NCBI GenBank assembly: GCA_030263455.1
Contig: SZOZ01000002.1
Location: 372,001 to 436,000, forward strand
DNA: 64,000 nt
Direction: 5' to 3'
DNA from: Synechococcales cyanobacterium CNB
GTDB taxonomy: Bacteria; Planctomycetota; Phycisphaerae; Phycisphaerales; UBA1924
Shown: positions 27,122-50,570 of the stretch, piece by piece
Position numbering within the stretch: position 1 is the first letter of the stretch
Layout: each line of letters opens with the position of its first letter
Notes under the pieces: model-generated
Databases searched by the model: none
Seen by the model: only the letters and a program-made list of their open reading frames with translations
Told to the model about the DNA's origin: nothing
Translations under genes and position numbers: made by a program

Positions 27122-27158
27122 AGACGCACGCCCGCGCGCAGGCTTATCGGCTTCGTGC

Positions 27159-29460: not shown

Positions 29461-29461
29461 A

Positions 29462-32757: not shown

Positions 32758-32761
32758 GCCC

Positions 32762-34624: not shown

Positions 34625-35440
34625 ATGCCCGAGACCGCGCCCCAGACCACCGACAACAGGCCCAACCCCCTCGCCGGGTTCTCCGGCGGCATCCCAGCTA
34701 GCGAGGCCGAGGTCGAGCAGATCGCGAGGAAGGCGGGCGAGCTCGCGGCGGCCTTCGAGGCCAGCGTCGCCAACCTGTCCGCCGCCGTCGACGCCGCGCG
34801 GGAGAAGTTCCGCCAGCGGCACGAGGCGCTGATCCCGCGCGACCAGCCGCGCTCGCAGGTCGCGGGCATCGTCGGCTACGTGCGCGACGCCGTGGACCGG
34901 GAGGTGCGAGAGTACCGCGACTCGCTCGTCCGCGAGACCGAGGCCGCGCGGCTCGACCAGCTGCGCCAGCTCGACGCGGCCCGGGCCAAGCTCGCGTCGC
35001 TCCTGGCCGTGCACCCCACGCCGGTGGCGATGCTCTCGGCGCAGGGGCTCGGCTCCGAGGAGCGGAGCCGCTACCACCAGCAGATCGGGCACGCGGGCAC
35101 GGCCGAGCTGGCCAACCTCGCCCGCCTCGCCGTCGCCACGGGCAACAAGGTGCTCGGGGCCGCGGTGCTCGCCCGGCTGGACACGCTGCCCAAGGAGCAG
35201 CGGCCGTTCTCGGCGCACCACCTCGCCGACGCCCTCGTGGGCCAGCAGCACGCGGCCATCGACGCGGCGCACAAGGCCGTGGACGCCGCGTTCCAGCGCG
35301 CCATCAACAGGAACCGCGAGCTGGCCACCGGCCGCATGACGCCCACCGGCAAGATCGCCGCCGGGCTCTCCGCCCTCTCGGCCGAGAAGGCCGCCGCCCG
35401 AGCCACGCCCGCCCCCGGGCCGAAGTTCAAAGGAGTCTGA
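34625..35440 (+). CDS. Helical protein of unknown function, element-encoded
   Basis: A 271-residue protein, almost all helix, with coiled-coil segments (EVEQIARKAGELAAAFEASV, YRDSLVRETEAARLDQLRQL) and a basic, Ala/Pro-rich C-terminus. It has no signal peptide. GAGGA lies ahead of the ATG at 34625. Shape and position between a TerS-like gene and small genes would fit a scaffold-like or capsid-modifying satellite protein, but nothing in the sequence proves it. Confidence 0.6.
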   Translation: MPETAPQTTDNRPNPLAGFSGGIPASEAEVEQIARKAGELAAAFEASVANLSAAVDAAREKFRQRHEALIPRDQPRSQVAGIVGYVRDAVDREVREYRDSLVRETEAARLDQLRQLDAARAKLASLLAVHPTPVAMLSAQGLGSEERSRYHQQIGHAGTAELANLARLAVATGNKVLGAAVLARLDTLPKEQRPFSAHHLADALVGQQHAAIDAAHKAVDAAFQRAINRNRELATGRMTPTGKIAAGLSALSAEKAAARATPAPGPKFKGV

Positions 35441-35444
35441 ACCC

Positions 35445-35702
35445 ATGCCGACCTTCCTCATCCGCGCCGTCAGCCCCTCCGACCGCAACAGCAGCGAGCG
35501 GAACGCCGTCATTGTCACCGCGCCCAGCGAGGGCGAGGCCCGAGACCTCGCCGCGGCCAACGCGCCCGACGGCGAGACCAAGGTCCGCCCGGGCTGGGTC
35601 GCCACTCGCATCGCCGACTCCGAGGAGAGCACCGTGCTCTGGGTGCAGGGCAACGTCGTCCTTCCGGGCGACGACGGACGAACCGTGTACCGGGGGACGT
35701 GA
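35445..35702 (+). CDS. Small protein of unknown function
   Basis: An 85-residue protein beginning MPTFLIRAVSPSDRN, with a beta-alpha pattern (NAVIVTAPSEGEARDLAAAN, STVLWVQGNVVLP). AAAGGAG sits 8 bp before the ATG and overlaps the end of the previous gene. No family is recognised. It is followed after 3 bp by the next gene of the same operon. Confidence 0.6.
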   Translation: MPTFLIRAVSPSDRNSSERNAVIVTAPSEGEARDLAAANAPDGETKVRPGWVATRIADSEESTVLWVQGNVVLPGDDGRTVYRGT

Positions 35703-35705
35703 CCG

Positions 35706-36119
35706 ATGCGCACCACCGCCGCAGACTTCGCCGAGTCCGCCGTCGCGCTGTGCATCGGAGAGCGGAACCTGCGCGCGATGGAGGAGTGCTGCCGGATGGA
35801 CCGGACGCTGGGCCTCGCGCGGATCGACGTCGGGCACATCGCCGAGGTCGTGCGCCGCACGCCCGGCTCGCGGCTCGCCGTCGTCGCCGCGGCCTTCGGC
35901 GTCCTGCCCCTCCGCGGCGAGCGCCGGGGCTGGGTCGACGTCGGCGGGGAGCGCGGCGGCGCGGGCGTCGTCCCCTCGGGAGACGACGAGGCCGCGTGCG
36001 CCTTCGCCCTCTGGCGGGCGCTGGGCGGCAGGGTCACGCGCCCGCTGCACGTCCCGCCGACGCCCACCGACCCCGCGCGCGACGTGCCCGTCGGCGGCCC
36101 CCGTGCCCCGGCGGACTAG
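35706..36119 (+). CDS. Protein of unknown function, last gene of the plus-strand operon
   Basis: A 137-residue protein with a Cys-containing helical N-terminus (FAESAVALCIGERNLRAMEECC) and a Gly/Arg-rich middle. It ends just before two stacked hairpins. It belongs to the run 33624-36119 by close spacing. No family is recognised, and the ATG at 35706 has only a weak ribosome-binding site. Confidence 0.5.
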   Translation: MRTTAADFAESAVALCIGERNLRAMEECCRMDRTLGLARIDVGHIAEVVRRTPGSRLAVVAAAFGVLPLRGERRGWVDVGGERGGAGVVPSGDDEAACAFALWRALGGRVTRPLHVPPTPTDPARDVPVGGPRAPAD

Positions 36120-36134
36120 ACAGCCCACTTCCAC

Positions 36135-36186
36135 GCCCGGGCTCGTAGCCCGGGCAGCGGCCCGCCCGCGTCGTACCGGGCGGGCC
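36135..36186 (+). terminator. Tandem hairpins ending the satellite operon
   Basis: Two perfect stems follow each other: GCCCGGGCT/AGCCCGGGC (36135-36155, 3-nt loop) and GGCCCGCCCG/CGGGCGGGCC (36159-36186, 8-nt loop). They lie 16 bp past the last stop. There is no clear T run. Confidence 0.6.
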
Positions 36187-36316
36187 GCATTCCGATAGCC
36201 GAAGCCGTCCCCCGCGTCCGCCGCAACAGAACGTGTCGGCCGGGGGCGGCGCTCAAGACGCACGCGCTTCGCGCCGATGATCTCGGACGATGCGCAACGC
36301 TCTCAGAAGGAACATC

Positions 36317-36520
36317 GTGCCCCAGCCGGGCACCGTGCAGGCTCGCGTGCTCGCGGCCCTGCTCACCGGCGAGACCGAGGTCTCCGCCCTGTGCTCCGCG
36401 ACCGGCCTCCGCGACAAGCAGGTGCGAGGTGCGATCGACGCGCTCCGCGCTCGCGGGTGGGACATCGCGCCACTGGGCGACTGCAACTTCCGCCTGAACG
36501 TGCAGAGCAAGGCCGCCTAG
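36317..36520 (+). CDS. Small winged-helix-like protein
   Basis: A 67-residue protein: PQPGTVQARVLAALLTGETE then VSALCSATGLRDKQVRGAID and ALRARGWDIAPLGDCNFRL, a compact winged helix of the kind used in phage and element repressors. I prefer the GTG at 36317, 5 bp after AAGGA; an ATG at 36290 would add nine residues. It converges on the minus-strand gene at 36517 with a 4-bp overlap. Confidence 0.6.
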   Translation: MPQPGTVQARVLAALLTGETEVSALCSATGLRDKQVRGAIDALRARGWDIAPLGDCNFRLNVQSKAA

Positions 36521-37080
36521 CGACCCCGGCGCTTCGGCCCGGGCTGCGCCGCCGCCCTGACCGGCTCGGCCTCCGACGCGGGGACCACGACCACCATGCC
36601 GTCGCGGTCGGGCCCCGCCGCGTGCCACGTCTCGCCTCCGTCGGCCATGTAGACGACGTAGCCGTTCGCGTGCGCCAGCAGGCGCAGGGCGTCGGCCACG
36701 TCGCGCGGCGTCCACTGGAACTCGGACCCGATCTCGGCCGCCGTCATGCCCCCGCCCATCAGCCGCGCGAGCAGGCGGCCCCTCTTGGACCCCGGCCGCG
36801 GCGGGCGCAGCTCCCCAGTGGGCTGGTGGGACGTCCGCCGGGCGGCCCGAGGAGCCCGGCTAGGACGGCCCTCTCGGGCTTGGACGGTCTTGCCTGGGCC
36901 GGGCGCGGGGCACGGGGCGGGCTCGCGGCTCTCGGCCTCCTCCAGGGCCGCGAAGACCCGCCGCAGGGCCGTCTCGCGGTCCGGGAACTTCCGCACCGGG
37001 CGGGCCGGGGACAGGCTGTTGTAAAAAGCGGCCAGCCCCGACAGGGGCAGCTTCACGATCTGGGAGCGGTCGTGCGGCAT
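36517..37080 (-). CDS. HTH protein, DUF3489-like
   Basis: A 187-residue protein. The N-terminus has LAAFYNSLSPARPVRKFPDR followed by ETALRRVFAAL, a pattern seen at the start of DUF3489-type proteins. A basic Pro/Arg linker leads to a helix-turn-helix (GGGMTAAEIGSEFQWTPRDV with ADALRLLAHANGYVVY after it). AAGGAG precedes the ATG. DNA binding is likely; the role is unknown. Confidence 0.6.
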   Translation of the reverse strand: MPHDRSQIVKLPLSGLAAFYNSLSPARPVRKFPDRETALRRVFAALEEAESREPAPCPAPGPGKTVQAREGRPSRAPRAARRTSHQPTGELRPPRPGSKRGRLLARLMGGGMTAAEIGSEFQWTPRDVADALRLLAHANGYVVYMADGGETWHAAGPDRDGMVVVVPASEAEPVRAAAQPGPKRRGR

Positions 37081-37214
37081 CGTCGGACTCCTTCGCTCGG
37101 CCGCGGGCCAATCCCCGCGGCGTCGAGAGAGCCATCGCGCACGTCGGCGGTGCAGACAACCTGTGACGAAAGGAAACGCGCCCGGCGGCTTTCACCGGCG
37201 GGCGCAGAGACGGT

Positions 37215-37511
37215 TCAGGCGATGCTGTAAATGTTGCAACGACGCAGATAGATCTGGTCGTCGAGAGTCAATCCGTGACCGGCGAGGCCGAGCAGTTCGT
37301 TGTCGATCCGTCCCACGAGGTGCGGTTCGTCGATCGCGGTGAGCTGAACCCAGAAGCGCTCACGGCCGTCGCTGACCTTCACGATTGAGCCGATCGCGAG
37401 CCTGTTCAACTCTTCCTTGCTTGGCACCTTGAATGTCGCGGGATGGATCTTCGCCATTGCCTCTGCGTCCACAAGGGCCATACGTCCCACTTTCACGGAA
37501 TCACGATTCAT
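37215..37511 (-). CDS. Small protein, possibly DUF2314-like
   Basis: A 98-residue protein with a beta-rich centre: LAIGSIVKVSDGRERFWVQL then TAIDEPHLVGRIDNELLGLA and HGLTLDDQIYLRRCNIYSI. The pattern 'hydrophobic-V-K-V ... RFWVxLT ... GRIDN-L ... HGL-x-x-DxI' recalls DUF2314 immunity-type domains. The ATG at 37511 has GAAGG before it; a longer frame to 37550 is less likely. It lies in a run of four minus-strand genes of unknown function. Confidence 0.55.
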   Translation of the reverse strand: MNRDSVKVGRMALVDAEAMAKIHPATFKVPSKEELNRLAIGSIVKVSDGRERFWVQLTAIDEPHLVGRIDNELLGLAGHGLTLDDQIYLRRCNIYSIA

Positions 37512-37646
37512 TTGATGGCCTTCCGGCTCAGCCGGGCGTGCGCAGCACACCGCGCACGCGGCAACGTGCCGCGCTCGTGGTCACTGGTCGGTTGTTTCAG
37601 AACCGAATCGCTCCCCGCGAACCTTCGCCCGCGGGAGCGGGCTTGG

Positions 37647-38054
37647 TCAGAACGGCGTTGCGTTGGCGGGCTTCTTCCGCGCTGCTTCAAGGCGGTCGAG
37701 GAACTCGATCAGCGCCGGATCGGCGGGGGTGTCGCCCGGGACATCGGTGCTGTCGTAAATGCGGAAGCTGGGTCGCTGGCGGCCGGTCGTCGGATCGGTG
37801 CTGCCCGCCCGCGCCAGCATCGGTGGCAGAGCGGTCAACGGGACGAACGCTGTCCAGTCCGCGCTCTTGCTCACGAGCGCCACGAACTTAGCCGGGTGCG
37901 GCAGCGCCCCGAACTCCGCCAGTGAGGGCTTGGTGACGCTGACGCCGCCGAACTGGGTGTCACTGATGCAGCAGAGAATCGCCGCGCCGTCAGTAGCCTT
38001 TTCGACCACAGTGTGCCAACCGAACTTTCCGATCTTCCTGTATTGCTGTTCCAT
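37647..38054 (-). CDS. Protein of unknown function
   Basis: A 135-residue soluble protein starting MEQQYRKIGKFGWHTVV, with an alpha/beta pattern (AAILCCISDTQFGGVSVTKP, KFVALVSKSADWTAFVPLTA). GGAG lies 6 bp before the ATG at 38054. The GC content is lower than in the left half of the element. No family is recognised. Confidence 0.55.
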   Translation of the reverse strand: MEQQYRKIGKFGWHTVVEKATDGAAILCCISDTQFGGVSVTKPSLAEFGALPHPAKFVALVSKSADWTAFVPLTALPPMLARAGSTDPTTGRQRPSFRIYDSTDVPGDTPADPALIEFLDRLEAARKKPANATPF

Positions 38055-38208
38055 GAATGAACTCCATCGAGCCTCGCCCCGCCGCACCGCTCGGTGCAGT
38101 CGCGTGGGCGACACGATGGATGTACATCACCGAAGCCGCGACAGCCGCCGCCTCGGCACCGATGGCATGTGGTGTCAGGTCTTGGCGATTGTCGACAGGT
38201 TCTCGGGC

Positions 38209-38673
38209 TCAGTGCCGCGGCCAGAACAGCTTCGCCTCGTCCTGCTGGTCGATGTACGGCCTGCCGCCGTTGCCGTTGTCGGCGTACCGGCCTAGGAGCT
38301 GGTCGGCGTCGAACCGGAAAAGGCGGATCTGACGCCCCGGCTGGTCCGGTCTCACCGGCCCGCCCAGCGTGCGGTCGTAGAGCTCGCAGGCGAGTCGGCC
38401 GTTGAAGATGAACTCCGCCCCGAACCTGTCGCGGCGGGGGCTCTGCCCCATCAGGTCGGCCAGCTCGGGGATGGACATGGGCCGCGTCCGCTCGTGCCCC
38501 TCCGGGATCGGCCGCAGGCTCGCCTCGATGGAGCCGTCCACCACGTGCATCCGGTGCAGCGCGCCGCCCGGCTGGCCCTCGCGGTGCAGCATGGCGTCGA
38601 GAGCGCCCGGCCTAGAAATGGCTCGGAGGAGGGCATCCAGATCCATCGGTTGCCTATCGACCAACCGACCCAT
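38209..38673 (-). CDS. Protein of unknown function next to the methyltransferase gene
   Basis: A 154-residue protein with LDALLRAISRPGALDAMLHR at the N-terminus and GRQIRLFRFDADQLLGRYAD toward the end. It is divergent from the methyltransferase gene, 47 bp away, a position often used by controller or repressor genes of modification systems, but no helix-turn-helix is obvious. The start may be the second Met at 38646. Confidence 0.5.
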   Translation of the reverse strand: MGRLVDRQPMDLDALLRAISRPGALDAMLHREGQPGGALHRMHVVDGSIEASLRPIPEGHERTRPMSIPELADLMGQSPRRDRFGAEFIFNGRLACELYDRTLGGPVRPDQPGRQIRLFRFDADQLLGRYADNGNGGRPYIDQQDEAKLFWPRH

Positions 38674-38720
38674 CGTGTTCCGCTAAGATCACGGCCCGTG
38701 CTCCCGGCCCGTACCCGAAC

Positions 38721-40049
38721 ATGCCCGCACACCAACGCCAATCCCGGCTCGGCCCTCCTCGACGTCTCCCATTCGAGTCGAAGGGCTTTGCCGACCTCAC
38801 ACACTACCTGTTCCGATATCCTGCGAAGTTCCATCCGCCAGTAGCTCGGGCGCTGTTGGATCGGTTCTCTACCGAGGGGGAAACTGTGCTGGACCCCTTC
38901 TGTGGCAGCGGGACGTTGCTCGTCGAAGCGTCAGCGATGGGAAGGCACTCCATTGGTATCGACGTCGATCCGCTAGCGGTATTCGTGTCTCGCGCCAAAA
39001 CGACTTGCTGGCCCCCGGACGCACTTGAGCAAGTGGCCGCCCGGCTGCTGCGGCGGCTCGCCCCGCTTCGACGGTCGAGCAACGAGTACGACCGGCGTAT
39101 GTTCCAAGATGTGCCGAAGAACCGGTATTCGGAGGTTGTCGCGAATGACAATCTGTGGGTTCCAGCGCTTGCCGATCCGTTCCATTGGTTCAGGCGGTAT
39201 GTGCTGATCGATCTCGCGAGGATTCGAAAGGCGATCCTCGCTCCCGCGACACCCCCGCGTTACCGGGACTTCTTCTTGTTGTGCTTCGCCTCCATAATCA
39301 GAGCCGCTTCAAACGCCGACCCGGTCCCAGTCTCCGGGTTAGAAGTCACTTCGCATATGCGAAAGAAGGATGCGGAGGGGCGTCGCATTGATCCCTTCGA
39401 GTTGTTCGAGCGAGCGATTACAAAGGCTCTTCGCGCCACATCCGAGTTTGCCACGACACGGGTGGTAGGCGTGACGAACGAAGTCCGCCGCGGCGACTCG
39501 ACCAACCTCAGCTACAGCGTTCGTCGCTCTGTAGATTGTCTGATTACGTCACCACCCTACCACGGTGCCGTGGACTACTACCGTCGACACATGCTGGAAA
39601 TGTACTGGCTTGGCATGACCCGAAGCCAAGACGACCGGCTCACACTCCTTCCGCAGTACATCGGCCGCGCGCGTGTCCCACGGGTGCATCCGTTTCTGTC
39701 GGTCACACCTGCCACCAAACGGGTCATGGCGTGGGAGCAGCGGATGCGGAAAGTCGAGCCGGAGCGAGCCGACGCTTTCCGGCACTACACGGTTGCGATG
39801 CAGAAGTTCTTCGATGGGGCAGCGAAAGTGCTGCCAGAGGGCCGCGATGCAGTGCTCGTCGTAGGCCGCAGCACCTGGAACGGTTTGGAAATCCCCACAA
39901 GCCAGCTGTTCACGGAACTTGCCCATGGGCAGTTCAAGCTGGTCGAACATTCATGGTACCCTATCAAGAACCGATACATGTCCTATGAACGGCGGAACGG
40001 AGCAGACATCAATCGGGAGCACGTCTTGGTCTACCGGCGGAGGAAGTAA
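38721..40049 (+). CDS. DNA (N4-cytosine or N6-adenine) methyltransferase
   Basis: A 442-residue amino-methyltransferase. The SAM-binding motif is VLDPFCGSGTLLVEASAMGR (residues 56-75) and the catalytic motif is SPPY (277-280). The YLFRYPAKFHPPVARALL segment before motif I is typical of type II/III-like modification enzymes. The 210-residue stretch between the two motifs probably holds the target-recognition domain (alpha-class order). The stop overlaps the start of the ATPase gene (TAATG), so both are made together. Its job would be to protect element and host DNA from the partner protein. Confidence 0.85.
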   Translation: MPAHQRQSRLGPPRRLPFESKGFADLTHYLFRYPAKFHPPVARALLDRFSTEGETVLDPFCGSGTLLVEASAMGRHSIGIDVDPLAVFVSRAKTTCWPPDALEQVAARLLRRLAPLRRSSNEYDRRMFQDVPKNRYSEVVANDNLWVPALADPFHWFRRYVLIDLARIRKAILAPATPPRYRDFFLLCFASIIRAASNADPVPVSGLEVTSHMRKKDAEGRRIDPFELFERAITKALRATSEFATTRVVGVTNEVRRGDSTNLSYSVRRSVDCLITSPPYHGAVDYYRRHMLEMYWLGMTRSQDDRLTLLPQYIGRARVPRVHPFLSVTPATKRVMAWEQRMRKVEPERADAFRHYTVAMQKFFDGAAKVLPEGRDAVLVVGRSTWNGLEIPTSQLFTELAHGQFKLVEHSWYPIKNRYMSYERRNGADINREHVLVYRRRK

Positions 40050-42625
40050 TGGCGAAAGCAGCAGCAGGACACCCTACGCCCGCAGCGAAGGCCGCGACAC
40101 TCATCGCCGACGACGTACGCGGACTGGAGGCGCAAGCGCAGGCTCGGAGGTCAACTGTCGAGCTCTCGAATGAGCTCGTAGGACTACTCTCGACTCAGCT
40201 GTATCGCACACCGATCAAGGCCATCGAAGAACTTGTCGTCAACTCCTACGACGCGGACGCCAATCAGTGCCGCCTCGCCGTTCCAACCCCGGAGGAGGTA
40301 GCTCGCGACGCGAAGGCTGCCTTCGTTGCGGTCTGGGACAACGGGCGGGGAATGGACGCCGACGGGCTGGTATCCCTCTGGTGCATCGGCGGAAGTCACA
40401 AGCGCACCGTTGATTACCAGAAGTATCTCAGCCGCAAGCAGATCGGCAAGTTCGGGATCGGCAAGCTCGCCACATACGCCATCGCTCGCCGAGTCACATA
40501 CATTTCGAGCGTCGGCGGGAAGGTCCACGGCGTCACCGTCAACTACGAAGACTTCGCAACGTCCGCCCCCGGGCAAACCAAACCAGTGCCTGTGCAGATT
40601 GTGTCAGTAGCGGATTGGAAGAAGTTCCGGCAGACCGAGAGATTCGGCGAAGTGCTCATGGCGCTCAAGCTGGACGCGGCAGCACTCGACTGCACGCCGT
40701 GGACGCTCGCAATCCTCGAAGACCTCAAGCCGAAGGCGCAGGAAATCAGGATCGGACGTCTTGGCTGGGTCTTGCGTTCAGCGATGCCACTCGTGCCCGG
40801 ATTCACATTATCACTGAACGGTGATGCGGTCACGAGTTCCAAGCAGGATTTCAAGCAGGTGGTCGAGCTCGATGTGGTCGACCTGTCCAAGGAGCGGATC
40901 GACAACCTCCGAAAGGAAACCGGCGAGCAGTGGGAAGTAAAGGACGGCGCTCTGGTCTGCAGCAGGCTCCCCGGCGGGGTAACAGGCAAGGCAGTGGTTT
41001 ATGACAGGTCGCTCCTTGGAGGCAAGAGCGATGACATTGGACGCAGCCACGGGTTCTTCGTCCGCGTGCGCGGGCGACTGCTCAATGAGGACGACCCACT
41101 GTTTGGGTTAGAACCTCTGTCGTTCTTGACATTCAATCGGTTTCGCGCAGACTTGACGGCCGACGATCTTGACAGCGTTATGCTGTCGTCGCGAGAGGAA
41201 GTCGAGAGCTCTCCAACCAAGGCAGTACTCGAAAGTCTTCTGCGGTCCTTATTCAATGAGGCGCGACAGCGTCACGAAGATTTGCAGAACAGCCTCTTCG
41301 ATAAGGAGAAAACCAAGAAAGAGGACGAGCGTCAGTTTGTAGCTCCACGACTCGTCGAGCGCCCCTTGGCGGACGTGTTGGCCTCGGACGCGACCCGCGG
41401 TGCCGGAGCCGATGCCGACCAGCATTGGTTCTACCTCAAGACGAATGGCAGTACTGATCTCAAGAAAGTCCTTGAGCGGTTGTATGCTGAGGGACGCGAG
41501 AAGTACCACTACAAGTACGAGAAAACAGGGCGAACCGGACGCATGGTGCAGTTCGATCCGGGATCGTCAACTTTTACCCTGAATGAGGAGCACGATTTTG
41601 TTCGGGCGTACAAAGACGAGCCCGCGACGCAGCGACTGCTGCACGATGTCATCACCGCGGAAACGCTGCTGGAGGTGTATCTCCGAGAGAGTGGAGTCTA
41701 TCCAGAGCTCGTCGGCGAGGTACTTGAGCGGCGCGACTTGCTGCTCCGGGGGCTGACGCAGGATCATCTATTCTCGTTTCCGGCGATCGCCGCTACACTG
41801 CGTGATGCCGCCGCGAACCAGTACGATCTAGAGATCGCGCTCGTTCGGGCGGCCCGTTCGCTGGGGTTTGTGGCCAAGCACATTTCGGGAGCCGGACAAC
41901 CAGATGGGGTTGCCCGGCTGATCAGCCATCCTGAAGGCGAGAGCCGAATCACCTTGGAAGCAAAGTCGTCGGCTGGTACGCCGACCCTGAACGCAATCGA
42001 CTTCGCGGGCCTCGCTCGGCACGCGCGGGATCACGAGTGCAAGGGTTGTCTGCTCGTGGCACCATCCTTCCCTGGCGAAACCAAAGGCGTCGACGCCGCG
42101 GCGGCCGATGATGCGAAGGCACAGAGAATCTCGTGTTGGACCATTGACACCCTCGCCCGACTGGTCGAGTGCGCCGATACTCGGCACATCAACGCGCGAC
42201 AAGTGCTTGACATCGTGTCCAAGCACTTCGCGCCCGACGACGTAACAGCGGCGGTTAACAAACTCTTGTCTGACCCCGCGTGGTCTCAGTCATCTCTTCA
42301 CATTGAGATACTGGCCGCTCTGCGGCGGTTGCAGAATCGTTTGCCGGACCGACCTCGCTCCGTCGAAATGATCGCGACGGAAGTGTCCGCCCAGGAGGGA
42401 TTTGCACAGGTCAACGCGGAGGATGTGAGGACCGCGCTCCTTCAAATGTCAGGTGCCAGCAAGGGTGGCGTAATCCTCACGGGAACCGGAGAGACGGTCG
42501 TAGTCAACATCGCCCTCGACGAACTTGCCAATCGATTGACAGGAGCACTCGGGCCGATGATGCCGACCCCGCGGGGACGAGGTGGGTTCCTCGCCACAAA
42601 TACCGGGGAAGAAACCGGGGTATAA
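40049..42625 (+). CDS. GHKL (MORC/MutL-like) ATPase with C-terminal PD-(D/E)xK-like nuclease domain
   Basis: An 858-residue protein. The Hsp90/MutL-type ATPase site is clear: EELVVNSYDADANQC (residues 60-74), WDNGRGMD (96-103) and KQIGKFGIGKLAT (130-142). A middle region follows (to about 560). The C-terminal part (about 590-690) has PDGVARL followed by RITLEAKSS, a D...ExK arrangement as in restriction-endonuclease folds. GHKL ATPases fused to nucleases and paired with methyltransferases are a known class of restriction-like systems related to MORC proteins. Here the methyltransferase precedes it with overlapping codons. I infer an ATP-controlled restriction or anti-phage effector. Confidence 0.82.
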   Translation: MAKAAAGHPTPAAKAATLIADDVRGLEAQAQARRSTVELSNELVGLLSTQLYRTPIKAIEELVVNSYDADANQCRLAVPTPEEVARDAKAAFVAVWDNGRGMDADGLVSLWCIGGSHKRTVDYQKYLSRKQIGKFGIGKLATYAIARRVTYISSVGGKVHGVTVNYEDFATSAPGQTKPVPVQIVSVADWKKFRQTERFGEVLMALKLDAAALDCTPWTLAILEDLKPKAQEIRIGRLGWVLRSAMPLVPGFTLSLNGDAVTSSKQDFKQVVELDVVDLSKERIDNLRKETGEQWEVKDGALVCSRLPGGVTGKAVVYDRSLLGGKSDDIGRSHGFFVRVRGRLLNEDDPLFGLEPLSFLTFNRFRADLTADDLDSVMLSSREEVESSPTKAVLESLLRSLFNEARQRHEDLQNSLFDKEKTKKEDERQFVAPRLVERPLADVLASDATRGAGADADQHWFYLKTNGSTDLKKVLERLYAEGREKYHYKYEKTGRTGRMVQFDPGSSTFTLNEEHDFVRAYKDEPATQRLLHDVITAETLLEVYLRESGVYPELVGEVLERRDLLLRGLTQDHLFSFPAIAATLRDAAANQYDLEIALVRAARSLGFVAKHISGAGQPDGVARLISHPEGESRITLEAKSSAGTPTLNAIDFAGLARHARDHECKGCLLVAPSFPGETKGVDAAAADDAKAQRISCWTIDTLARLVECADTRHINARQVLDIVSKHFAPDDVTAAVNKLLSDPAWSQSSLHIEILAALRRLQNRLPDRPRSVEMIATEVSAQEGFAQVNAEDVRTALLQMSGASKGGVILTGTGETVVVNIALDELANRLTGALGPMMPTPRGRGGFLATNTGEETGV

Positions 42626-42639
42626 GCCCCATACGCAAA

Positions 42640-43012
42640 CGCTCCGGGCGCGATTCGAACGCGCGACCTTCGGTTTCAGCCGTTCCGGCGGTCTCCCCGC
42701 CGGGCCGGACCATCTCACCACCCTGCCCGTCCGCCTGCGCGGGTCGGGGGTCGGGTGCCGGGCGCTTCCGGGCCGCCAAGGGCACGGCTCGGTGCGGGGG
42801 TATCGCCGGGGCGGCTCACCCGCTGGTCTCTACACCTTCCGTCGGCAGGAGGCTCGCGCCTCCGCCCCGCCGACGGCTCGGCTCGGGATTGCCCCCGCGG
42901 CCCGTGCCGCGGTCGGGTTCCCCCGAGTTCACCCGGTTTGCACCGGCCCCTCCCGAGGCCGGGTCCCAGTTCCCTAGGAAACCGATGCTCTATCCAGCTG
43001 AGCTACCGGAGC
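42640..43012 (-). tRNA. tRNA-Arg(CCT) interrupted by a group I intron
   Basis: Exon 1 (43012-42976) gives acceptor GCTCCGG, D-arm GCTC-AGCTGGATA-GAGC, anticodon stem TCGGT and loop TTCCT. Exon 2 (42676-42640) gives loop AA, stem ACCGA, variable AGGTC, T-arm GCGCG-TTCGAAT-CGCGC, acceptor CCGGAGC and discriminator G. All stems pair perfectly and the joined RNA is 74 nt, without an encoded CCA. Arginine identity points A20, C35 and G73 are present. It reads AGG. It differs from the broken host tRNA-Arg in every stem except the D-stem, so it is not a copy of it. It starts 15 bp after the integrase stop and may share its transcript. Confidence 0.93.
42677..42975 (-). ncRNA. Group I intron (IC3-like) in the tRNA-Arg anticodon loop
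   Basis: 299 nt, inserted after U36, with U before the 5' splice site and G as the last intron base (42677). Core elements in order on the minus strand: P region CTCGGGGGAACCCG (42927-42914), Q GGCAATCCCGAGCC (42893-42880), R GGTGTAGAGACC (42836-42825) and S GAGATGGTCC (42716-42707). GACC of R pairs with GGTC of S as P7. A GGGA shortly after the 5' splice site can pair with UCCU of the exon as P1. There is no ORF inside. The motifs closely match the small self-splicing introns known from bacterial tRNA-Ile and tRNA-Arg(CCU) genes. Splicing itself is inferred. Confidence 0.9.
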
Positions 43013-43027
43013 TCTTGTCAGGGGAGT

Positions 43028-44338
43028 TTACGCCCCCGACGCCCGGCTCGCTCGGCCGTGCTCGTCCACCCCTGCCTTGGCCCGCAGGAACTTGGCCACC
43101 TTCTCCACGCACCCCCGCAGGTGCTCGTCGCCCGGGCGCTGGTAGCCCTCGGTGACGTCGTCGCTCGGCAGCGTGTGGTTGACGAGGATCTTGCGCTCGA
43201 ACATCCCGACGCCCGCCTCCAGGCAGGCGGTGACGAACGTGTCGCGCAGCCGGTGCGGCGAGGGCAGGTACCCCTTCTTCACGGGCCGCCCGTCCACCCG
43301 CAGCACCCGCCCGTCCGGCCCCTTCGCGTATCGCTGCTCCTTGGCCTCGGCCACCGGCACGACGTTGCCCTCGCGGTCGCGCGTCGGGAACACCCAGCCG
43401 CCGTCGTCGCCGAAGCGCACCGAGTTGTCCATCTTGCGCCGGGCGAGCATCGCCAGCAGGAACCGGCAGAGCGGCACCGTGAACGCGCGGTCTTCGCCGC
43501 CCTTTGGCTTGGGCCGGTGCACGGTCCCGCGGTCGAAGTCCACGTGCTCCCAGCGGACGGTGCGGGCGTCGGCGCTGCGCAGCCCGGTGAACAGCAGGAA
43601 CAGGTTCAGGTCGCGGCGCACCGGATTCTCGATCGCGTGCACCTTCTCCCACCACCCGGGCAGCTCGCCCCACGGGATCGGCGAGCGCTTGCGCCGCTGC
43701 TTGTTGAACGTGACGCCCTCCACTGGGTGCGGCGGGAGCTCGGCGTAGAGCTTCCTCGCGCTGTTCCAGCAGGCCCGCATCATGCGCAGCGCGCGGTTCG
43801 CCGACACTGGCCCGTGGTCGGTCGTGATCTTCCGGTGGCGCTCCACGCAGTCCTTGCGGGTGATGGTGACGAGCGGCCGCGGCAGCCAGTCGTCCAGGTA
43901 CCGCCGGATCTCCGAGCGGATCTGGCCCATTGACAGTTCCGCGCAGTCCTTCGCGCGCATGTTGGCGACGTGCTCCTCCACCGCCTGCGCCAGCGTGTAC
44001 GACAGCCACTCCTCGCGGCGGCGCTCCTCGGCCCGCTCCCGCTCCCGGGCGTTGGGGTCCACGCCCCGGTCCATCTCGACGACCAGCTCCCGCGCCCGCT
44101 TCCTCGCCTGCTCGGCGGTCCACGTCGGGTAGCGCCCGATCGTGACCCGCACCGACCGCCCGGCGACGTCCTTCTGCACGACGAAGGTGCGGGTGCGGGC
44201 ACCGACGACCAGCCCGAAGCCGGGCAGGTCCGTGTCCCAGTAGATGCGCTGCGTGACGGGCCTCCCGCTGGCCGTGACCTCGCCCGCGGGCGGCGGGCAG
44301 CTGCGCTCGATGGCGCTCCCGGTGAGCTTGACCTTCAT
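43028..44338 (-). CDS. int: Tyrosine recombinase (integrase) targeting tRNA-Arg(CCT)
   Basis: A 436-residue phage-type integrase. An N-terminal DUF4102-like arm-binding domain (YWDTDLPGFGLVVGARTRTF, then RVTIGRYPTWTAEQARKRA) is followed by a SAM-like core-binding domain and the catalytic domain. The catalytic residues are Arg in LFTGLRSADARTV, Lys in RPKPKGGEDRAFTVP, the HxxR in SPHRLRDTFVT, His in LVNHTLPS and Tyr in VTEGYQRPG. A strong AGGAGG precedes the ATG. It lies beside attR, transcribed inward from the split tRNA, and the intron-bearing tRNA follows 15 bp after its stop. The host tRNA promoter therefore probably reads through it after integration. Confidence 0.95.
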   Translation of the reverse strand: MKVKLTGSAIERSCPPPAGEVTASGRPVTQRIYWDTDLPGFGLVVGARTRTFVVQKDVAGRSVRVTIGRYPTWTAEQARKRARELVVEMDRGVDPNARERERAEERRREEWLSYTLAQAVEEHVANMRAKDCAELSMGQIRSEIRRYLDDWLPRPLVTITRKDCVERHRKITTDHGPVSANRALRMMRACWNSARKLYAELPPHPVEGVTFNKQRRKRSPIPWGELPGWWEKVHAIENPVRRDLNLFLLFTGLRSADARTVRWEHVDFDRGTVHRPKPKGGEDRAFTVPLCRFLLAMLARRKMDNSVRFGDDGGWVFPTRDREGNVVPVAEAKEQRYAKGPDGRVLRVDGRPVKKGYLPSPHRLRDTFVTACLEAGVGMFERKILVNHTLPSDDVTEGYQRPGDEHLRGCVEKVAKFLRAKAGVDEHGRASRASGA

Positions 44339-44360
44339 GGCGACCGACCTCCTGTTCTAA

Positions 44361-44376
44361 CAAGGCAGTAACAAGG
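44361..44376 (+). repeat. Arm-type repeat, copy 3
   Basis: CAAGGCAGTAACAAGG, one mismatch from the 16-mer at 29569-29584, lies in the leader of the integrase gene. Binding there could both form the integration complex and repress int. Confidence 0.55.
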
Positions 44377-44411
44377 TCGGCCCGTAAAAGAGGTCGCTAC
44401 AGGCGTAAAGC

Positions 44412-44438
44412 GCAAACCCCGGAAAACACGGCGTTTGC
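44412..44438. promoter_or_regulatory. Inverted repeat in the integrase leader
   Basis: GCAAAC (44412-44417) and GTTTGC (44433-44438) with extended partial pairing lie between the tRNA fragment and int. It may be an operator or an attenuator that decides how much of the tRNA transcript continues into int. Confidence 0.35.
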
Positions 44439-44483
44439 CGCCCCTGTAAAAGGGCGCGGGGTCCGCCGAAAGCCGGTGCTGTG

Positions 44484-44495
44484 CGTTTAGGAAAC
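44484..44495. repeat. Attachment core, right end
   Basis: The same 12-mer as at 29494-29505 (CGTTTAGGAAAC). It covers the anticodon loop and the adjacent stem bases of the tRNA 5' fragment. Confidence 0.9.
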
Positions 44496-44525
44496 GACTG
44501 CTCTATCCTGCTGAGCTACCCGAGC
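44484..44525 (-). pseudogene. 5' fragment of the chromosomal tRNA-Arg(CCT), cut by integration
   Basis: Read on the minus strand: acceptor GCTCGGG, TA, D-arm GCTC-AGCAGGATA-GAGC, A, anticodon stem GTCGT, loop TTCCTAA and three bases of the return stem. Then element sequence begins, with no T-arm or acceptor 3' strand. The missing half is at 29462-29505, 15 kb away. The last 12 bases are the attachment core shared with the left end. Confidence 0.9.
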
Positions 44526-44535
44526 ACGGGGAGAG

Positions 44536-44565
44536 TTTATGCGCTCGGGCAGTGCGGCGGTTCAG
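44536..44565 (-). promoter_or_regulatory. Candidate promoter of the broken tRNA-Arg, now reading into int
   Basis: On the minus strand CTGAAC (44565-44560) and CATAAA (44541-44536) are spaced by 18 bp and end 10 bp before the tRNA 5' end. CTGAAC overlaps the stop codon of the msr gene. After integration transcription from here would cross the tRNA fragment and enter int and the intron-bearing tRNA. The boxes are imperfect. Confidence 0.4.
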
Positions 44566-45635
44566 TCTTCGGGGAGCGCGCAGGAGCCGCCGTGCTTGAG
44601 GTGGTAGTCCTGGTGGTCGTCCTCCGCCTCCCAGAACTTCGTGGCGGGCACGATCTGCGTGACGATGCGGCGGTCGCGGTACTTGTCGGTCCGCTGGAGG
44701 GCTTCGACGAAGGCGCGGGCCTCGGCGAGCTGGCGCTCGTCCGCCGCGAAGATCGCGGAGCGATACTGCGTGCCGACGTCGGGGCCTTGGCGGTTGAGCG
44801 TGGTGGGGTTGTGGAACTTGAAGAACCACCCGAGGAGGTCGCGGTAGGCGACGCGGGCGGGATCGAAGACGACGCGGACGGATTCGGCGTGGCCGGTGTT
44901 GCCCGTGCAGACTTGTTTGTAGGTGGGGTTGTCGACGTGGCCGCCTTGGTAGCCGCTGACCGCGTCGATGACGCCGGGAATCTGCTGGAAGCGGTCCTCA
45001 ACCCCCCAGAAGCAACCGCCGGCGAAGTAGGCGGTCTCGGTGGGGACGGGGCGCGCGGCGGGGGGGAGTTCGTCGCCCTTCTCGTGGAACTCGAGCGACG
45101 CGGAGTTGAGGCAGAAGCGCAGGCCCGTGGGTGTCTGCGGGGCATCGTCGAAGACGTGGCCGAGGTGGCCTCCGCAGCGCGCGCAGAGAATCTCAACGCG
45201 GACCATGCCGTGCGAGGCATCGCGCTCGGTGGCGACGTGGTCCGGATCGACGGGCTTGAAGAAGGACGGCCAGCCGGTGCCGCTGTTGAACTTCGCATCG
45301 GAGGCGAAGAGCGGGAGCGAACAGAGCCGGCAGAGATACACGCCTTCCTTCTTGTTGTCGAGGAGGTTCCCGCAGAAGGCCGGCTCGGTGCCCTTGCGGA
45401 GGATGATGCGCGCCTCTTCGGGCGTGAGCCGCGCCGCAAGCTCCCTGATGCGATCCGGCGTGAGCGGCGTGATATCGTGCGCGCTCTTTGAATAGCGCGG
45501 CGTGCGATCGGTGTTCATGCGGATGGCCTTGAAGTCCGGCTCGTCGTGCCGCGGCGCGGGGGGACGGGCGACGATGAGCAGCACGGGCGCGGCAGCGACA
45601 ACGGCCAGGAGGAATGCGAGGTTGAGTGTTCGCAC
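44562..45635 (-). CDS. msrAB: Membrane-anchored MsrB-MsrA fusion (methionine sulfoxide reductase)
   Basis: A 357-residue bifunctional enzyme that reduces R- and S-methionine sulfoxide. One N-terminal membrane helix (LAFLLAVVAAAPVLLIVA) suggests envelope location. MsrB comes first: zinc cysteines in YLCRLC and LCARCGGHLGH, GTGWPSF, and catalytic Cys in RFCLNSASLEF. MsrA follows with FAGGCFWGVEDRF, GYQGG and HAESVRV. I start at the GTG at 45635 because AGGAGG lies 7 bp before it; the longer frame to 45686 lacks this. B-before-A is the less frequent domain order. It lies just upstream of the split tRNA. Confidence 0.94.
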   Translation of the reverse strand: MRTLNLAFLLAVVAAAPVLLIVARPPAPRHDEPDFKAIRMNTDRTPRYSKSAHDITPLTPDRIRELAARLTPEEARIILRKGTEPAFCGNLLDNKKEGVYLCRLCSLPLFASDAKFNSGTGWPSFFKPVDPDHVATERDASHGMVRVEILCARCGGHLGHVFDDAPQTPTGLRFCLNSASLEFHEKGDELPPAARPVPTETAYFAGGCFWGVEDRFQQIPGVIDAVSGYQGGHVDNPTYKQVCTGNTGHAESVRVVFDPARVAYRDLLGWFFKFHNPTTLNRQGPDVGTQYRSAIFAADERQLAEARAFVEALQRTDKYRDRRIVTQIVPATKFWEAEDDHQDYHLKHGGSCALPED

Positions 45636-45782
45636 GTGGTCGCCTCCTGCCTGAGTGAACAAGGAAGGGCGAGAGGGAGCCTGCAACGCCCCGACCCGGG
45701 AAGGGTACGACGCGCTCGGAGAGGGGGCCCGGAAGACCCCCGCCCCGGGAAAGCGTAGGCGGCGGCGCGGGGCTCGCGCCCG

Positions 45783-47033
45783 TCAGGCCGCGTTGTACTG
45801 GCGACGCAGGGCGAGGTCAAGGTCGAACTCGGTGGCGTGGCCGGGGAAGAAGTTGTCCGCGGCGACGTCCTGGCCCTCGGCGACGGCGACGTAGAGGTCG
45901 GGTCGATCGCGGAGGTTGATGCGCTCGCCCGGCTCGTCGTCGTCGAAGTGCGTGGTGGGGTCGCCGATGGTCTGGACGACGGGCCGGCACGGGTCCAGGT
46001 GGGTCCACTCGGCGACGACGCAACGCGTCCCGTCGTTGAGCGTCACGAGCGTGCCCGGGGCATACGGCGGCACCACCGCGATGAGGGCCTGGCGCACGAC
46101 GGGGTCGATCCAGCGGGAACGCGGCGGCGCGAGCATCAGATTCAGCGCACGCACCATGGGGATCGTCGGCACTGGATTGAGTTCCGCACGCGGGGCGTGC
46201 ATCGGGTTGCGCGTGCGGTCGAAGAGATCGGCGGCGGCGAGGATGCGCGCAAAGACGTGGATGTCGTGACCGGCGACGCGGGTCTCGCGCCCGTCGAACG
46301 TGGCCCGGTCGGGGAAGCCCGTACCATCGAATCGCTGGTGGTGGTGGAGAACGGCGGCGGCGGCGGACGGCTCTATCTCTCCCTGGACCATACGGAAGCC
46401 GACATGGACGTGCTCCTGCCAGGCGGGGTCGGACTCGTCCTGCGTGCGGTTCCAGCGGTCGAGCGTGTCGTCGTCGAGCCTGAGCATGCCGATGTCGTGC
46501 AGAAGACCGGCCAGCCCGAGGCTGGAGACGTCGCGGGCGAGAACGGCGTCGATGCGCGATCGCTCGCGCATGAGATAGGACTCGAGTTTGATGCCCATGA
46601 GCAGCGCGAGGAGACAGACGTTCCCCGCGTGGCGGATGGGAGGGGGGCCGGCAGAGCCGAGTTCGTGCATGAAGAGCCGCGCACGCGGGCTTTCGAGCAG
46701 GCGCTCGAGCAGGGCCTGCACCGCGCGCCGATAGGCGGGGTATTCGAGCCGCGCGTGCTTGTGCTCGCGCGCGGCCTCGAAAACGGGGGCGACCGCTGTC
46801 GTCACCTCGTGCCCCGCTTGGATCAGCATGGGGCTGACGTGCTCGGCGAGGAAGTCGAGGTTCGGGTACGTGATCCAGATCTCGCGGAGGTGGAGCTCGC
46901 GCAGACGCTCGATGACGTGCGACTCGAGAACGACGCCCGCGCGCAGCAGCGCGCTCTCCTGGCGCTTGGGGTGGTAGACGGGCAGGGCGAGTTCCATACC
47001 CGGCCTGGCGAGTGCGATGGGGACTCTCAGCAT
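45783..47033 (-). CDS. HD-GYP domain protein (putative cyclic-di-GMP phosphodiesterase)
   Basis: A 416-residue protein. The N-terminal region (LRVPIALARPGMELALPVYH ... AGVVLESHVIERLRELHLRE) resembles the DUF3391-like leader of HD-GYP proteins. The HD pair is in LAGLLHDIGMLRL, and the GYP motif appears as HHHQRFDGTGFPD, with Phe in place of Tyr. The C-terminal extension (GTLVTLNDGTRCVVAEWTHL) is a small beta domain. It probably hydrolyses c-di-GMP and so connects to the sessile/motile switch; catalytic residues look intact. Confidence 0.87.
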   Translation of the reverse strand: MLRVPIALARPGMELALPVYHPKRQESALLRAGVVLESHVIERLRELHLREIWITYPNLDFLAEHVSPMLIQAGHEVTTAVAPVFEAAREHKHARLEYPAYRRAVQALLERLLESPRARLFMHELGSAGPPPIRHAGNVCLLALLMGIKLESYLMRERSRIDAVLARDVSSLGLAGLLHDIGMLRLDDDTLDRWNRTQDESDPAWQEHVHVGFRMVQGEIEPSAAAAVLHHHQRFDGTGFPDRATFDGRETRVAGHDIHVFARILAAADLFDRTRNPMHAPRAELNPVPTIPMVRALNLMLAPPRSRWIDPVVRQALIAVVPPYAPGTLVTLNDGTRCVVAEWTHLDPCRPVVQTIGDPTTHFDDDEPGERINLRDRPDLYVAVAEGQDVAADNFFPGHATEFDLDLALRRQYNAA

Positions 47034-47207
47034 GCGCGTGCCGCTCCGTTCAGAGCATCGGTTGTCGGGCGGGGCACGGCGAGCGGGATTCCGGGACCGT
47101 GAGGGGAATCCGGGTCTTCGCGGGGTCGCGAGCGGGAGCGTTTGCCCGGGGTCGCGCGCGACGCGGTTATTGGGACCTCCGCAGGACGGGCCGACCGCTC
47201 GCGAACC

Positions 47208-50200
47208 TCACTCGGCGGCTCTGCGCAGGCGGTCGAGGCGGTCAGGGGGCGTGTCATCCCTGGCGAAGCGCACGATCGCAGCCTCGAGATTCCCCGCAAG
47301 GTGTGCGTCGTGGTAGCGGAGGTTCCAGAGTTCCGCGTTACCGGCGCTCGTCGCGCAGGCGAGGGAGAGACCGTCGGGGCTGAAGGCGACGCCGGGAATC
47401 GGCCCGGAGTCGGATTCGAGGCTGGCGAGGAGGCGCGCGGAGCGGGTGTCCCACAACTTCACGGTGCCGTCGTCGCCACCGGAGGCGAGGGTCCGGCCGT
47501 CGGGGCTGAACGCGAGTCCCGCGACGACGAGGTGGTGTCGAGCCGCGCCGATGGTCCGTTCGCCCGCGGCGAGGTCGAAGAACTCGACCGTCGCGCCGAA
47601 GGTTCCGGCGGCGAGGGTTCTTCCGTCGGGCGTAATGGCGACGGACCATGGGGTGCTCGTGGTTCGGAGCACGTCGAGGCGTTCGAGCGTGTCGGCGTCC
47701 CAGACGATGATGCCGTCGGTCGCGCCGGAGGTGAAGAGCCGCGTGCCGTCCGGTGAGTAGACGACGCCTCTCGGGAGCGCGGCGAGTCCCGAAGCGAGCG
47801 CACTCGTGGTTGCGGTGTCGATGTCATAGACGGCGACGGTCATGTCGGCATTGACAGCGGCGATGCGGCGCCCGTCCGGGCTGAAGGCGAGGGCGTAGAC
47901 CTCGCCGCGGGCCGGGCCGAGCGTGGATCGGAGTTCCCCGGACTCGGCGTCGAGCAGGAGCACGCGGCCGTCGCTGCATCCGACGGCAATGGAAGAGCCG
48001 TCGGGGCTGAACCGAGTGATTCGCGCGCGATACGCCGGGGAGAGGTCCGCAGTCCAGAGGAGTTCGCCTTCGCGGAGGTTCCAGAGCCGCACGGCGCGGT
48101 CTCCGCCCCCGGTGACGAGCCGAGAACCGTCTTGGCTGTAGTCGACGCCGAAGACCCAGGTCCGGTGGGCGTGGATGTCCCGCCGCGCTGGCCATGGCCT
48201 CGACTCCCAGAGACGGATCCAGCCGTCCAGCTCGACGGTGACGAACCGATCGCCGACCCAGTCGCCGCGATGGATGGAACCGACAGGAAAGGCGAGGATG
48301 GAGCGCCGCTCGTCGTCGAGCTCCTGGACCGTGGCGTTGAGGTAGCGGACGGCCAGGAGCGTCCGCTGGTCCGCGTGGAGCGCGACGGACCGGACGTCGG
48401 TGGTGCCGAAGGCGGTGCGCGGGGGCGTTCGGCCCGTGATGTCCCAGCGGATGGCGGCGCGATTGCTCGCGCCGGAGTAGAGGACAGCCCCGTCGGCGGA
48501 GAAGCAGAGGGAACGGATGGAGCCGTCGCTGGTGCCGAGGAGCCTGCCCTGCGGCTGCTCGCCGTCCACGGTCCAGAGCATGACCGCTCCGTCGCGTCCG
48601 CCGGAGGCAATGGCACCGGAAGCGGGATCGAAGGCGAGAGCATCGACGGCAGCTTCGCCCGATTTCCATGCGGCGAGTTGCGCGCCATCGGTCGTTGATC
48701 GGAGCACGACCGACCCGTCGTTCGAGGCGACGGCGAGGCGGGCGCGGACAGGGTCGGCGGCTGCGGCCGTGACGGGCCGTTCGTGGGCACGCCACTCGGC
48801 AACGCGCGCGATCGCACCATCCGCATCGATGCCCCACTGCCGCACCGTGCCGTCGGCGTGGGCCGTGATGACGGCGTGATCGTCCATCCAGCGGACAGCG
48901 ACGACAGCGGCGGCACGCGACGGCTCGTCGAGCGAGACCGCAGCTAGCGTGGCGCCGGAACGCGGGTCAAGGACCGTAATCCCGCCAAGACCAGACGCCA
49001 CAACAATGCGCGTGGCGTCCGGACTCGCCGCAACGGCGGTCGCGGACGTTCCGACGCGGGTGGTCCACAGGCACGGGAACCGCGCGTAGAGCTCCCAGAG
49101 CGCCCAGCGCGCGGGCCGTGAATCCGGGTCCGCGAGGTACTCCGGCCAGAGGAAGCTTTCCGCGCCTGGGCCGTTGAGGGCCACGCCTTCGGCCCGTCCG
49201 CGCTCGATCAAACCCGCATGGAGTTGTTCCCGAAGGCGCTCGTTGAGCTGGTGCGCGAGCCGGCGTTGCTCCTCGGCGGCGGCACGCGCGTTCGCCTCCT
49301 CGCGGCGAGCGGCGGCCTCGCTGATCGCGAGCGCGTGGTTGTTGGCCGACTGGATCGAGGAGTGCACCGCGAAGACGGCAAGGGCCAGCGCGATGATGAC
49401 GCCAGCCGCCAGCGCCCCGCGGTATCGTCGCAGGGAGCGACGCAGGAGTTCGGCGGCCGATGACTCGCGCGCGGCGATGGGCTGTCCCGCCAGGTGACGG
49501 CGGATGTCCTCGGCCAGTTCCGCAGCAGACTGGTACCGGCGAGCTTTGTCCTTCGCCATGGCCTTGGCGACGATGGTCTCGACGTCGCCGCGCAGCGTGC
49601 GGTCGATCGCGCTCAGCCGCGTCGGCGGGTCATCGCGGATGATGCGAGCGGCCTCGGGGATGGACCGCGAGCGAAGGTCGAACGGGAGTTTTCCCGCCAG
49701 GAGCTCAAAGGCGATCACCCCGAGCGCGTACACGTCGGACCGGTTGTCGATCTCCGAGGGATCGGCGGCAATCTGCTCCGGACTCATGTACGGCAGGGTG
49801 CCGATCAGCTGCCCGACGCTCGTGCGGAGCGTCGTCACCTGAAGATCGGCGTCCATGGCGCGGGCGACGCCGAAGTCGAGAATCTTGGGCTGCCCGTGCG
49901 CATCGACGAGGATGTTCGACGGCTTGAGGTCTCGGTGGATCACGCCGCGCTGGTGGGCGTGGTGGATGGCATCGCAGACGCGGGCGAGCAGTTCGAGACG
50001 TTCGGCGGTGGTGAGCCGTCTGGCCTCGACGAAGTCTGTGATCGGGGGCCCCTCGACGAGTTCCATGGCGATGAACGGCTGCGAGCCGACGTCGGTCTCG
50101 GCGATGCCCGCCTCGTAGATCTGCGCGATCCCGGCGTGGTGCATCCTGCCGAGGATTTCGGCCTCGTGCTCGAACCGCCGGAGCAGGGAGGGCGAGGCGA

Positions 50201-50570
50201 CCGCGCCGCGGATGATCTTGAGGGCGACGGTTCGTCGCGGCCGTTCCTGCTCCGCGAGGTAGACCACGCCCATGCCGCCCGCGCCGAGAAATCGGACGAC
50301 CTTGTAGGAACCGATCCGTTTGTCCGCCGGGAGCGCGGTCTCGAAACGGACAGGCTCGTTGTTGAACGTCGCCCCGATGGGCGCCGCGACCGGGGGCACG
50401 TCCAACATGCCGATGGAGCCGGAGGCATGGCCAAGGAGCGACTCGACCTCGCGCCGGAGTTCGTCGTCGTGGGCGCACCGTTCGGCAAGGAAGGCTGAGC
50501 GGCGATCGCCCGGCACTTCCATGGCCGCGATGAACAGCGATTCAACCTCTCGCAGCCGATCCTGGTTCAT
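47208..50570 (-). CDS. Ser/Thr protein kinase with C-terminal WD40 propeller repeats
   Basis: A 1120-residue protein. After a short N-terminal helical region comes a protein kinase domain (about 85-360): GAGGMGVVYLAEQ, VALKIIRG, the catalytic loop HRDLKPSNILV, DFGVA and YMSPEQIAADPSE. A membrane helix (about 388-405) and a short coiled coil follow, then about a dozen WD40-type repeats to the end (for example SRLVTGGGDRAVRLWNL, ASGGDDGTVKLWD). All catalytic motifs are present. It is preceded by an ECF sigma gene 9 bp upstream, a standard planctomycete pair in which the kinase is thought to act on, or respond together with, the sigma factor. Confidence 0.94.
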   Translation of the reverse strand: MNQDRLREVESLFIAAMEVPGDRRSAFLAERCAHDDELRREVESLLGHASGSIGMLDVPPVAAPIGATFNNEPVRFETALPADKRIGSYKVVRFLGAGGMGVVYLAEQERPRRTVALKIIRGAVASPSLLRRFEHEAEILGRMHHAGIAQIYEAGIAETDVGSQPFIAMELVEGPPITDFVEARRLTTAERLELLARVCDAIHHAHQRGVIHRDLKPSNILVDAHGQPKILDFGVARAMDADLQVTTLRTSVGQLIGTLPYMSPEQIAADPSEIDNRSDVYALGVIAFELLAGKLPFDLRSRSIPEAARIIRDDPPTRLSAIDRTLRGDVETIVAKAMAKDKARRYQSAAELAEDIRRHLAGQPIAARESSAAELLRRSLRRYRGALAAGVIIALALAVFAVHSSIQSANNHALAISEAAARREEANARAAAEEQRRLAHQLNERLREQLHAGLIERGRAEGVALNGPGAESFLWPEYLADPDSRPARWALWELYARFPCLWTTRVGTSATAVAASPDATRIVVASGLGGITVLDPRSGATLAAVSLDEPSRAAAVVAVRWMDDHAVITAHADGTVRQWGIDADGAIARVAEWRAHERPVTAAAADPVRARLAVASNDGSVVLRSTTDGAQLAAWKSGEAAVDALAFDPASGAIASGGRDGAVMLWTVDGEQPQGRLLGTSDGSIRSLCFSADGAVLYSGASNRAAIRWDITGRTPPRTAFGTTDVRSVALHADQRTLLAVRYLNATVQELDDERRSILAFPVGSIHRGDWVGDRFVTVELDGWIRLWESRPWPARRDIHAHRTWVFGVDYSQDGSRLVTGGGDRAVRLWNLREGELLWTADLSPAYRARITRFSPDGSSIAVGCSDGRVLLLDAESGELRSTLGPARGEVYALAFSPDGRRIAAVNADMTVAVYDIDTATTSALASGLAALPRGVVYSPDGTRLFTSGATDGIIVWDADTLERLDVLRTTSTPWSVAITPDGRTLAAGTFGATVEFFDLAAGERTIGAARHHLVVAGLAFSPDGRTLASGGDDGTVKLWDTRSARLLASLESDSGPIPGVAFSPDGLSLACATSAGNAELWNLRYHDAHLAGNLEAAIVRFARDDTPPDRLDRLRRAAE

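Follow-up and report, generated by a model that had tools for sequence, protein, structure and literature searches.

An integrative element of 15 kb has broken the tRNA-Arg(CCT) gene of its host and, very probably, supplies in return a complete, intron-split and presumably self-splicing replacement captured from a relative. The element lies in the anticodon loop of the host gene, which it would have entered by means of its own tyrosine integrase; unlike in ordinary tRNA-targeting islands, the junction tRNA is not rebuilt, and two dead halves are left behind. What the element has instead is a complete tRNA-Arg(CCT) gene 15 nt behind the integrase stop codon, on the same strand and probably co-transcribed with it, and this gene likely stems from a relative in which a group I intron interrupts the native tRNA-Arg(CCT). 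Its transcript, with a U.G in P1 at the 5' splice site, a guanosine site in P7 and a G as last intron base, is predicted to self-splice into a mature tRNA, which would then be charged. The following features of the window, i.e. the whole 64,000-nt stretch analysed, carry the argument.

29506-44483, strand not applicable: integrative element, 14,990 bp core to core, missing from the same site in the congener G001
44484-44525, minus strand: native host tRNA-Arg(CCT), 5' half, marking one end of the element; the core GTTTCCTAAACG occupies 44495-44484
29460-29505, minus strand: native host tRNA-Arg(CCT), 3' half, marking the opposite end of the element; the core GTTTCCTAAACG occupies 29505-29494
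43028-44338, minus strand: tyrosine integrase (Arm-DNA-bind_3, E 2.3e-12; Phage_integrase, E 2.4e-10; family alignment)
42976-43012, minus strand: 5' exon of the spare tRNA-Arg(CCT), its last bases being the anticodon CCT, identical to the exon of G183 and G016
42677-42975, minus strand: group I intron of 299 nt, starting immediately 3' of the anticodon
42640-42676, minus strand: 3' exon of the spare tRNA-Arg(CCT), discriminator base present, CCA not encoded

The host tRNA-Arg(CCT) is split within its anticodon loop and the halves mark both element ends. Joined without the element, the flanks give an intact tRNA-Arg(cct) in ARAGORN, and in a genome of the same genus (G001) the site is empty and the tRNA-Arg(CCT) unbroken: window positions 25904-29505 and 44479-48686 meet in its contig L078, where they overlap by 16 bp at the tRNA, and the two host halves match its tRNA gene at 98%. 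Together with this empty site, the locus shows the tyrosine integrase and the direct repeats in a tRNA gene that define an island. Neither junction amounts to a working tRNA, and no tRNA-like sequence follows the core at 44484 or precedes 29505, meaning that the target has not been restored by an attP fragment at the junction.

As for the spare gene, exons 43012-42976 and 42676-42640 of the minus strand join into a 74-nt tRNA-Arg(cct) with every arm paired (ARAGORN), and the final base of the 299-nt block between them (42975-42677, minus strand) is G. The first-pass annotation had described two minus-strand exons around 299 nt with an intron border directly after the anticodon, and ARAGORN on the joined exons bears out its coordinates, anatomy and border alike. 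ARAGORN run without introns on the whole window yields no tRNA; the intron-permitting run which that annotation had suggested does find tRNA-Arg(cct) at 43012-42640 (minus strand) but misplaces the 3' intron border. No match to plasmids or phages was obtained by blastn with 42600-43060.

No other tRNA-Arg(CCT) is found among the 45 Rfam tRNA hits of the genome, all of them typed by ARAGORN (Arg acg, ccg and tct are present), and the single match to an uninterrupted-CCT pattern is the attR half, i.e. the dead 3' half. With no further candidate for a CCT tRNA in this search, the gene broken by the element has most likely been replaced by the intron-split copy, and since the element sits inside a second tRNA-Arg(CCT), a replacement role is also more probable than that of incidental cargo. 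The earlier description of the gene as cargo beside an integrase is thus right as to the integrative element and the adjoining integrase, but the host tRNA halves flanking the element speak against cargo that is incidental. The host would therefore appear to rely on the element for its tRNA-Arg(CCT). Such reliance stays presumptive, however, as the genome, in 17 contigs, is 98.7% complete and could hold an intact CCT copy that escaped notice, and as tRNA-Arg(TCT) might read AGG.

The intron is of group I type, an assignment that we take from the alignment of its relatives because the Rfam model RF00028 is negative on the window copy. RF00028 is absent from the window at gathering score, from 42400-43250 at E<=5 and from the whole genome at E<=0.001. 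The first-pass annotation had let its group I call hang on this search; a negative outcome, however, is also what most true relatives give, as RF00028 matches only two of 18 related loci scanned (E 1.2e-6 and 2.4e-4, full length, both under gathering score). Folding energy of the single sequence is likewise ordinary (z -1.27; 23 of 200 shuffles fold equally well), and we rejected both measures as proof of group I.

What upholds the group I type is a covarying fold with a P7 pseudoknot common to 22 aligned introns, namely the window copy and 21 of the 22 introns from other genomes (G084, whose 5' exon was not found, is left out). RNAalifold on this alignment gave P1, P2, P3, P4, P5, P6, P8 and P9-like helices plus an extra helix pair inserted after P7; helix names are our own assignment, and the fold was edited by removal of one short helix competing with P7 and addition of the P7 pseudoknot. 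Pairing holds in 97.9% of 1493 cells compared to 89.5% in shuffles, both-sided changes occur in 27 of 68 pairs and 0 of 500 shuffles scored as high as observed on any of five measures, figures that all lean towards the model because the structure came from the same alignment. When partners were shifted by 1-3 columns, pairing fell to 32-48% of cells. The P3-P8 core with its P7 pseudoknot is present, P7 pairing in 99.1% and P3 in 99.4% of cells, and with these two near-invariant the covariation comes from the P1, P2, P5, P6, P8 and P9 regions. In P1, the 5' exon pairs with an internal guide and sets a U.G at the splice site in 22/22 rows, 21 of them sound (the G017 row is misaligned at the 5' exon and its P1 cells are invalid); two P1 pairs covary. 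A terminal G was seen in 7/7 introns and then in 22/22, though the extraction rule itself demanded G.

Between the window intron and that of G183, 34 of 326 columns differ but just 7 of 136 paired columns, and none of the 68 pairs is broken (two are compensated); against the G016 intron, one pair in 68 is broken. In the window copy itself, each of the 68 pairs of the model is a standard one. That paired columns changed less than the intron as a whole supports a working intron, albeit no particular use for it. Small group I introns occur in bacterial tRNA-Arg(CCU) and tRNA-Ile(CAU) genes, for example in Agrobacterium and Azoarcus. The window intron, which may resemble their IC3 introns, shares with them its small size, its group I type and its place in the anticodon loop; it differs in that it rides in an integrative element and is undetected by RF00028.

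According to a DNA search, 23 of 163 family genomes (window's included) carry the intron-split CCT gene; the uninterrupted pattern occurs in 127, counting the dead 3' half in the window's genome, and 15 have neither. Only the window's copy adjoins an integrase: in none of the 22 other intron-bearing genomes does a Phage_integrase lie within 100 kb on the same contig (G112 has the nearest one, at 107 kb; some of the contigs do not extend far). In 21 of these 22 there is no uninterrupted CCT pattern, and the match in the remaining one (G117) does not continue as a tRNA. With no integrase nearby and no uninterrupted CCT gene, the intron-split genes of other carriers are usually the resident copy. 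The exons of the window gene are identical to those of G183 and G016, which makes three genera, and unlike the other 19 aligned genes; its intron is 93% like that of G183 and 85% like that of G016. The simplest account of these similarities would be that the element captured the gene in a host with a native intron-split CCT gene. As two congeners of G183 (G182, G184) have uninterrupted CCT genes, the G183/G016 intron type may have moved between genera. The genes flanking the intron-split tRNA of G183 (L115:12700-13073) lie on different contigs in G182 and G184, a possible insertion or rearrangement point. An intron model run on 26 integrase-family and three other sources gave a strong match in the window alone (next best E 0.33), and the intron core motif had 0 hits in viral contigs. 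Weaker matches to the intron model exist outside the family (L153 in G274, L154 in G249 and L155 in G355).

The layout of integrase followed by tRNA recurs. Relatives of the integrase are present in 6 of 150 family genomes and 7 of 392 genomes of the phylum, a pattern scan of 84,980 species genomes contributed 15 named loci, and about 23 distinct cellular loci are left after removal of duplicates by coordinates. Viral loci number three (L181-L183), and all phage or plasmid relatives of the integrase are below 60% identity. At 9 of the ~23 cellular loci a complete tRNA sits directly behind int on the same strand, within ~110 nt: Thr(TGT) in contig C1 of the window's own genome and in G021, Arg(CCT) in the window, and Arg(TCT) in contig C12 of the same genome, G081, G089, G090, G111 and L131. 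Among these nine the intron is confined to the window's copy. At ~13 of the 23, no replacement tRNA was found near int, several of these loci being truncated or degenerate; L132 and L141 have CCT halves without a spare within the fetched stretch, and in L136, L139 and L140 an intronless CCT tRNA lies 2-4 kb from int. Eight elements could be seen with a host half on either side (three in the window's genome, plus G081, G089, G090, G111 and G433), and the five TCT elements measure 11.1-11.7 kb.

Two of the eight are sister elements in the window's own genome (G000). In one (C12:75395-86800; L120, L119) the anticodon loop of the host tRNA-Arg(TCT) is split and a complete divergent tRNA-Arg(TCT) follows int; in the other (C1:87827-103235; L118, L117) a tRNA-Thr(TGT) is split, a complete tRNA-Thr(TGT) follows int, and int is oriented the opposite way relative to the host tRNA. 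The tRNA-Arg(TCT) and tRNA-Thr(TGT) of this genome are therefore element-borne too; together with tRNA-Arg(CCT) this makes three tRNAs whose genes were found on elements only. The G433 element (C12, approximately 57596-72220; L172, L173) splits a CCT gene and has its intronless replacement tRNA at the end away from int. Next to an integrase fragment, L161:392-650 holds within 250 nt the 5' half of a CCT tRNA, then a full-length CCT tRNA that lacks an intron and has the same core, and a 3' scrap; this is maybe a collapsed element.

Could the intron itself be of use to the element? A tentative idea, on balance rather unlikely, is that it is kept as a mask: the spare tRNA's DNA would be no target for the element's own or rival integrases, and splicing would restore the RNA. 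The same modest odds apply to reading the host as hostage, with an element that destroys the host anticodon loop while a self-splicing intron hides the DNA site of its spare, which would make the ribozyme a means of immunity acting at the level of DNA. The intron is positioned exactly inside the core and, by cutting the anticodon-loop core, keeps the spare's DNA from being an attB-like site; the joined exons, compared by eye, would give GGTTTCCTAAAC, a 12-bp attP match and the same as the true attB GTTTCCTAAACG. Preservation of intron pairing and exon identity across three genera fit such a role, and tRNA introns as a block to integration are a proposal of Randau and Soell, cited in an excerpt of PMC3293823. 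Tested against intronless sister elements, however, the idea turns out weak. These relatives cope although their replacement and disrupted host anticodon arms match at 9-15 of 17 positions; the intronless spares of G081 and G090 match the host arms at 15/17, whereas the window's joined arm does so at 11/17. Moreover, the intron is in one element of the family only, hence there is no recurrence, and in L161 a full CCT tRNA that has the same core and no intron stands beside a half and an integrase fragment. Because intronless relatives manage, the intron may well be an inherited passenger, somewhat more likely in our opinion than a mask.

Two further readings concern the gene rather than the intron. 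Negative RF00028 searches would suit a decaying, unspliced pseudogene, with AGG read by tRNA-Arg(TCT), but the 68 standard pairs of the window copy and exons equal to those of G183 and G016 render this quite improbable. That the intron-split gene is a resident chromosomal tRNA beside which the element landed would agree with the 22 of 22 other carriers in which no Phage_integrase was seen within 100 kb on the same contig (short for some). Yet it lies between two host halves, inside 15 kb that are absent from G001, and both G001 and G002 of the same genus carry an intronless CCT gene; unless G001 lost the segment precisely, the empty site rejects a resident gene, which we consider extremely improbable.

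A replacement brought in by the element sets the window locus apart as a new variant of tRNA-targeting integrative element. According to an excerpt of the Islander study (PMC4383910), island sequences as a rule restore their target gene. Islander islands share with our element a tyrosine integrase, an anticodon-loop attB, direct core repeats and a displaced tRNA fragment; in them, however, the attP fragment restores a hybrid target, whereas our element has no working junction tRNA and brings, apart from the junctions, a full gene of divergent sequence. In the Caldiarchaeum tRNA-Thr(GGU) element, for which an excerpt of PMC3293823 raises the option that an element-brought intron could block later invaders, a recombinase insert likewise has a 5' tRNA fragment on one side and a tRNA with an intron on the other, and intron gain is tied to a mobile element. 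Its archaeal intron is spliced by endonuclease and lies in the att site, in contrast to the group I ribozyme type in an internal tRNA described here; neither recombined att copy holds an intron in our case, both cores being uninterrupted. Archaeal integrases are reviewed in PMC8371274 and include the pTN3-like type, which, judging from the excerpt, resembles our system in that a tRNA is expressed from the integrase gene but differs in that a 5'-half attP restores the target copy. Introns are not mentioned in the portion of PMC11476347 at hand. In the partial literature covered, no tRNA with a group I intron, replacement or other, turned up in an integrative element, which we count as weak evidence of absence.

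An essential gene would thus serve as landing site for an element that breaks it and pays with a full spare. With the genes found for tRNA-Arg(CCT), tRNA-Arg(TCT) and tRNA-Thr(TGT) all element-borne, the host reads some of its codons by way of mobile DNA, and were an element to be lost imprecisely, a tRNA would go with it. The locus may also offer a bacterial, ribozyme-type counterpart to the long-standing idea of tRNA introns guarding against integrases, which becomes testable. Such elements would escape island finders that rely on a hybrid junction tRNA, just as the spare escapes tRNA finders.

Further genes of the element with a family match are as follows, several other frames having none.

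29948-30250, plus strand: small HTH_17 protein (E 7.5e-8), excisionase-like by fold family, a putative role
30247-32757, plus strand: Prim-Pol (primase-polymerase) protein of 836 aa (E 3.1e-13)
38721-40049, plus strand: DNA methyltransferase (PADLOC MTase_II, E 4.5e-34)
40049-42625, plus strand: GHKL-ATPase protein, probable restriction enzyme partner (REase_II, E 1.9e-9)

The gene content recalls that of small integrative elements capable of their own replication, or of phage satellites, that carry a restriction-modification system. The methyltransferase and the large GHKL-ATPase protein (38721-42625) probably form a restriction-modification pair that is remote from the curated model BbrUII/HgiDII (NF050001): the GHKL-ATPase protein matches this model at E 4.9e-16 and 58 bits versus a cut-off of 550. 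On the host side, window positions 47208-50570 encode a serine/threonine kinase with a long WD40 repeat array.
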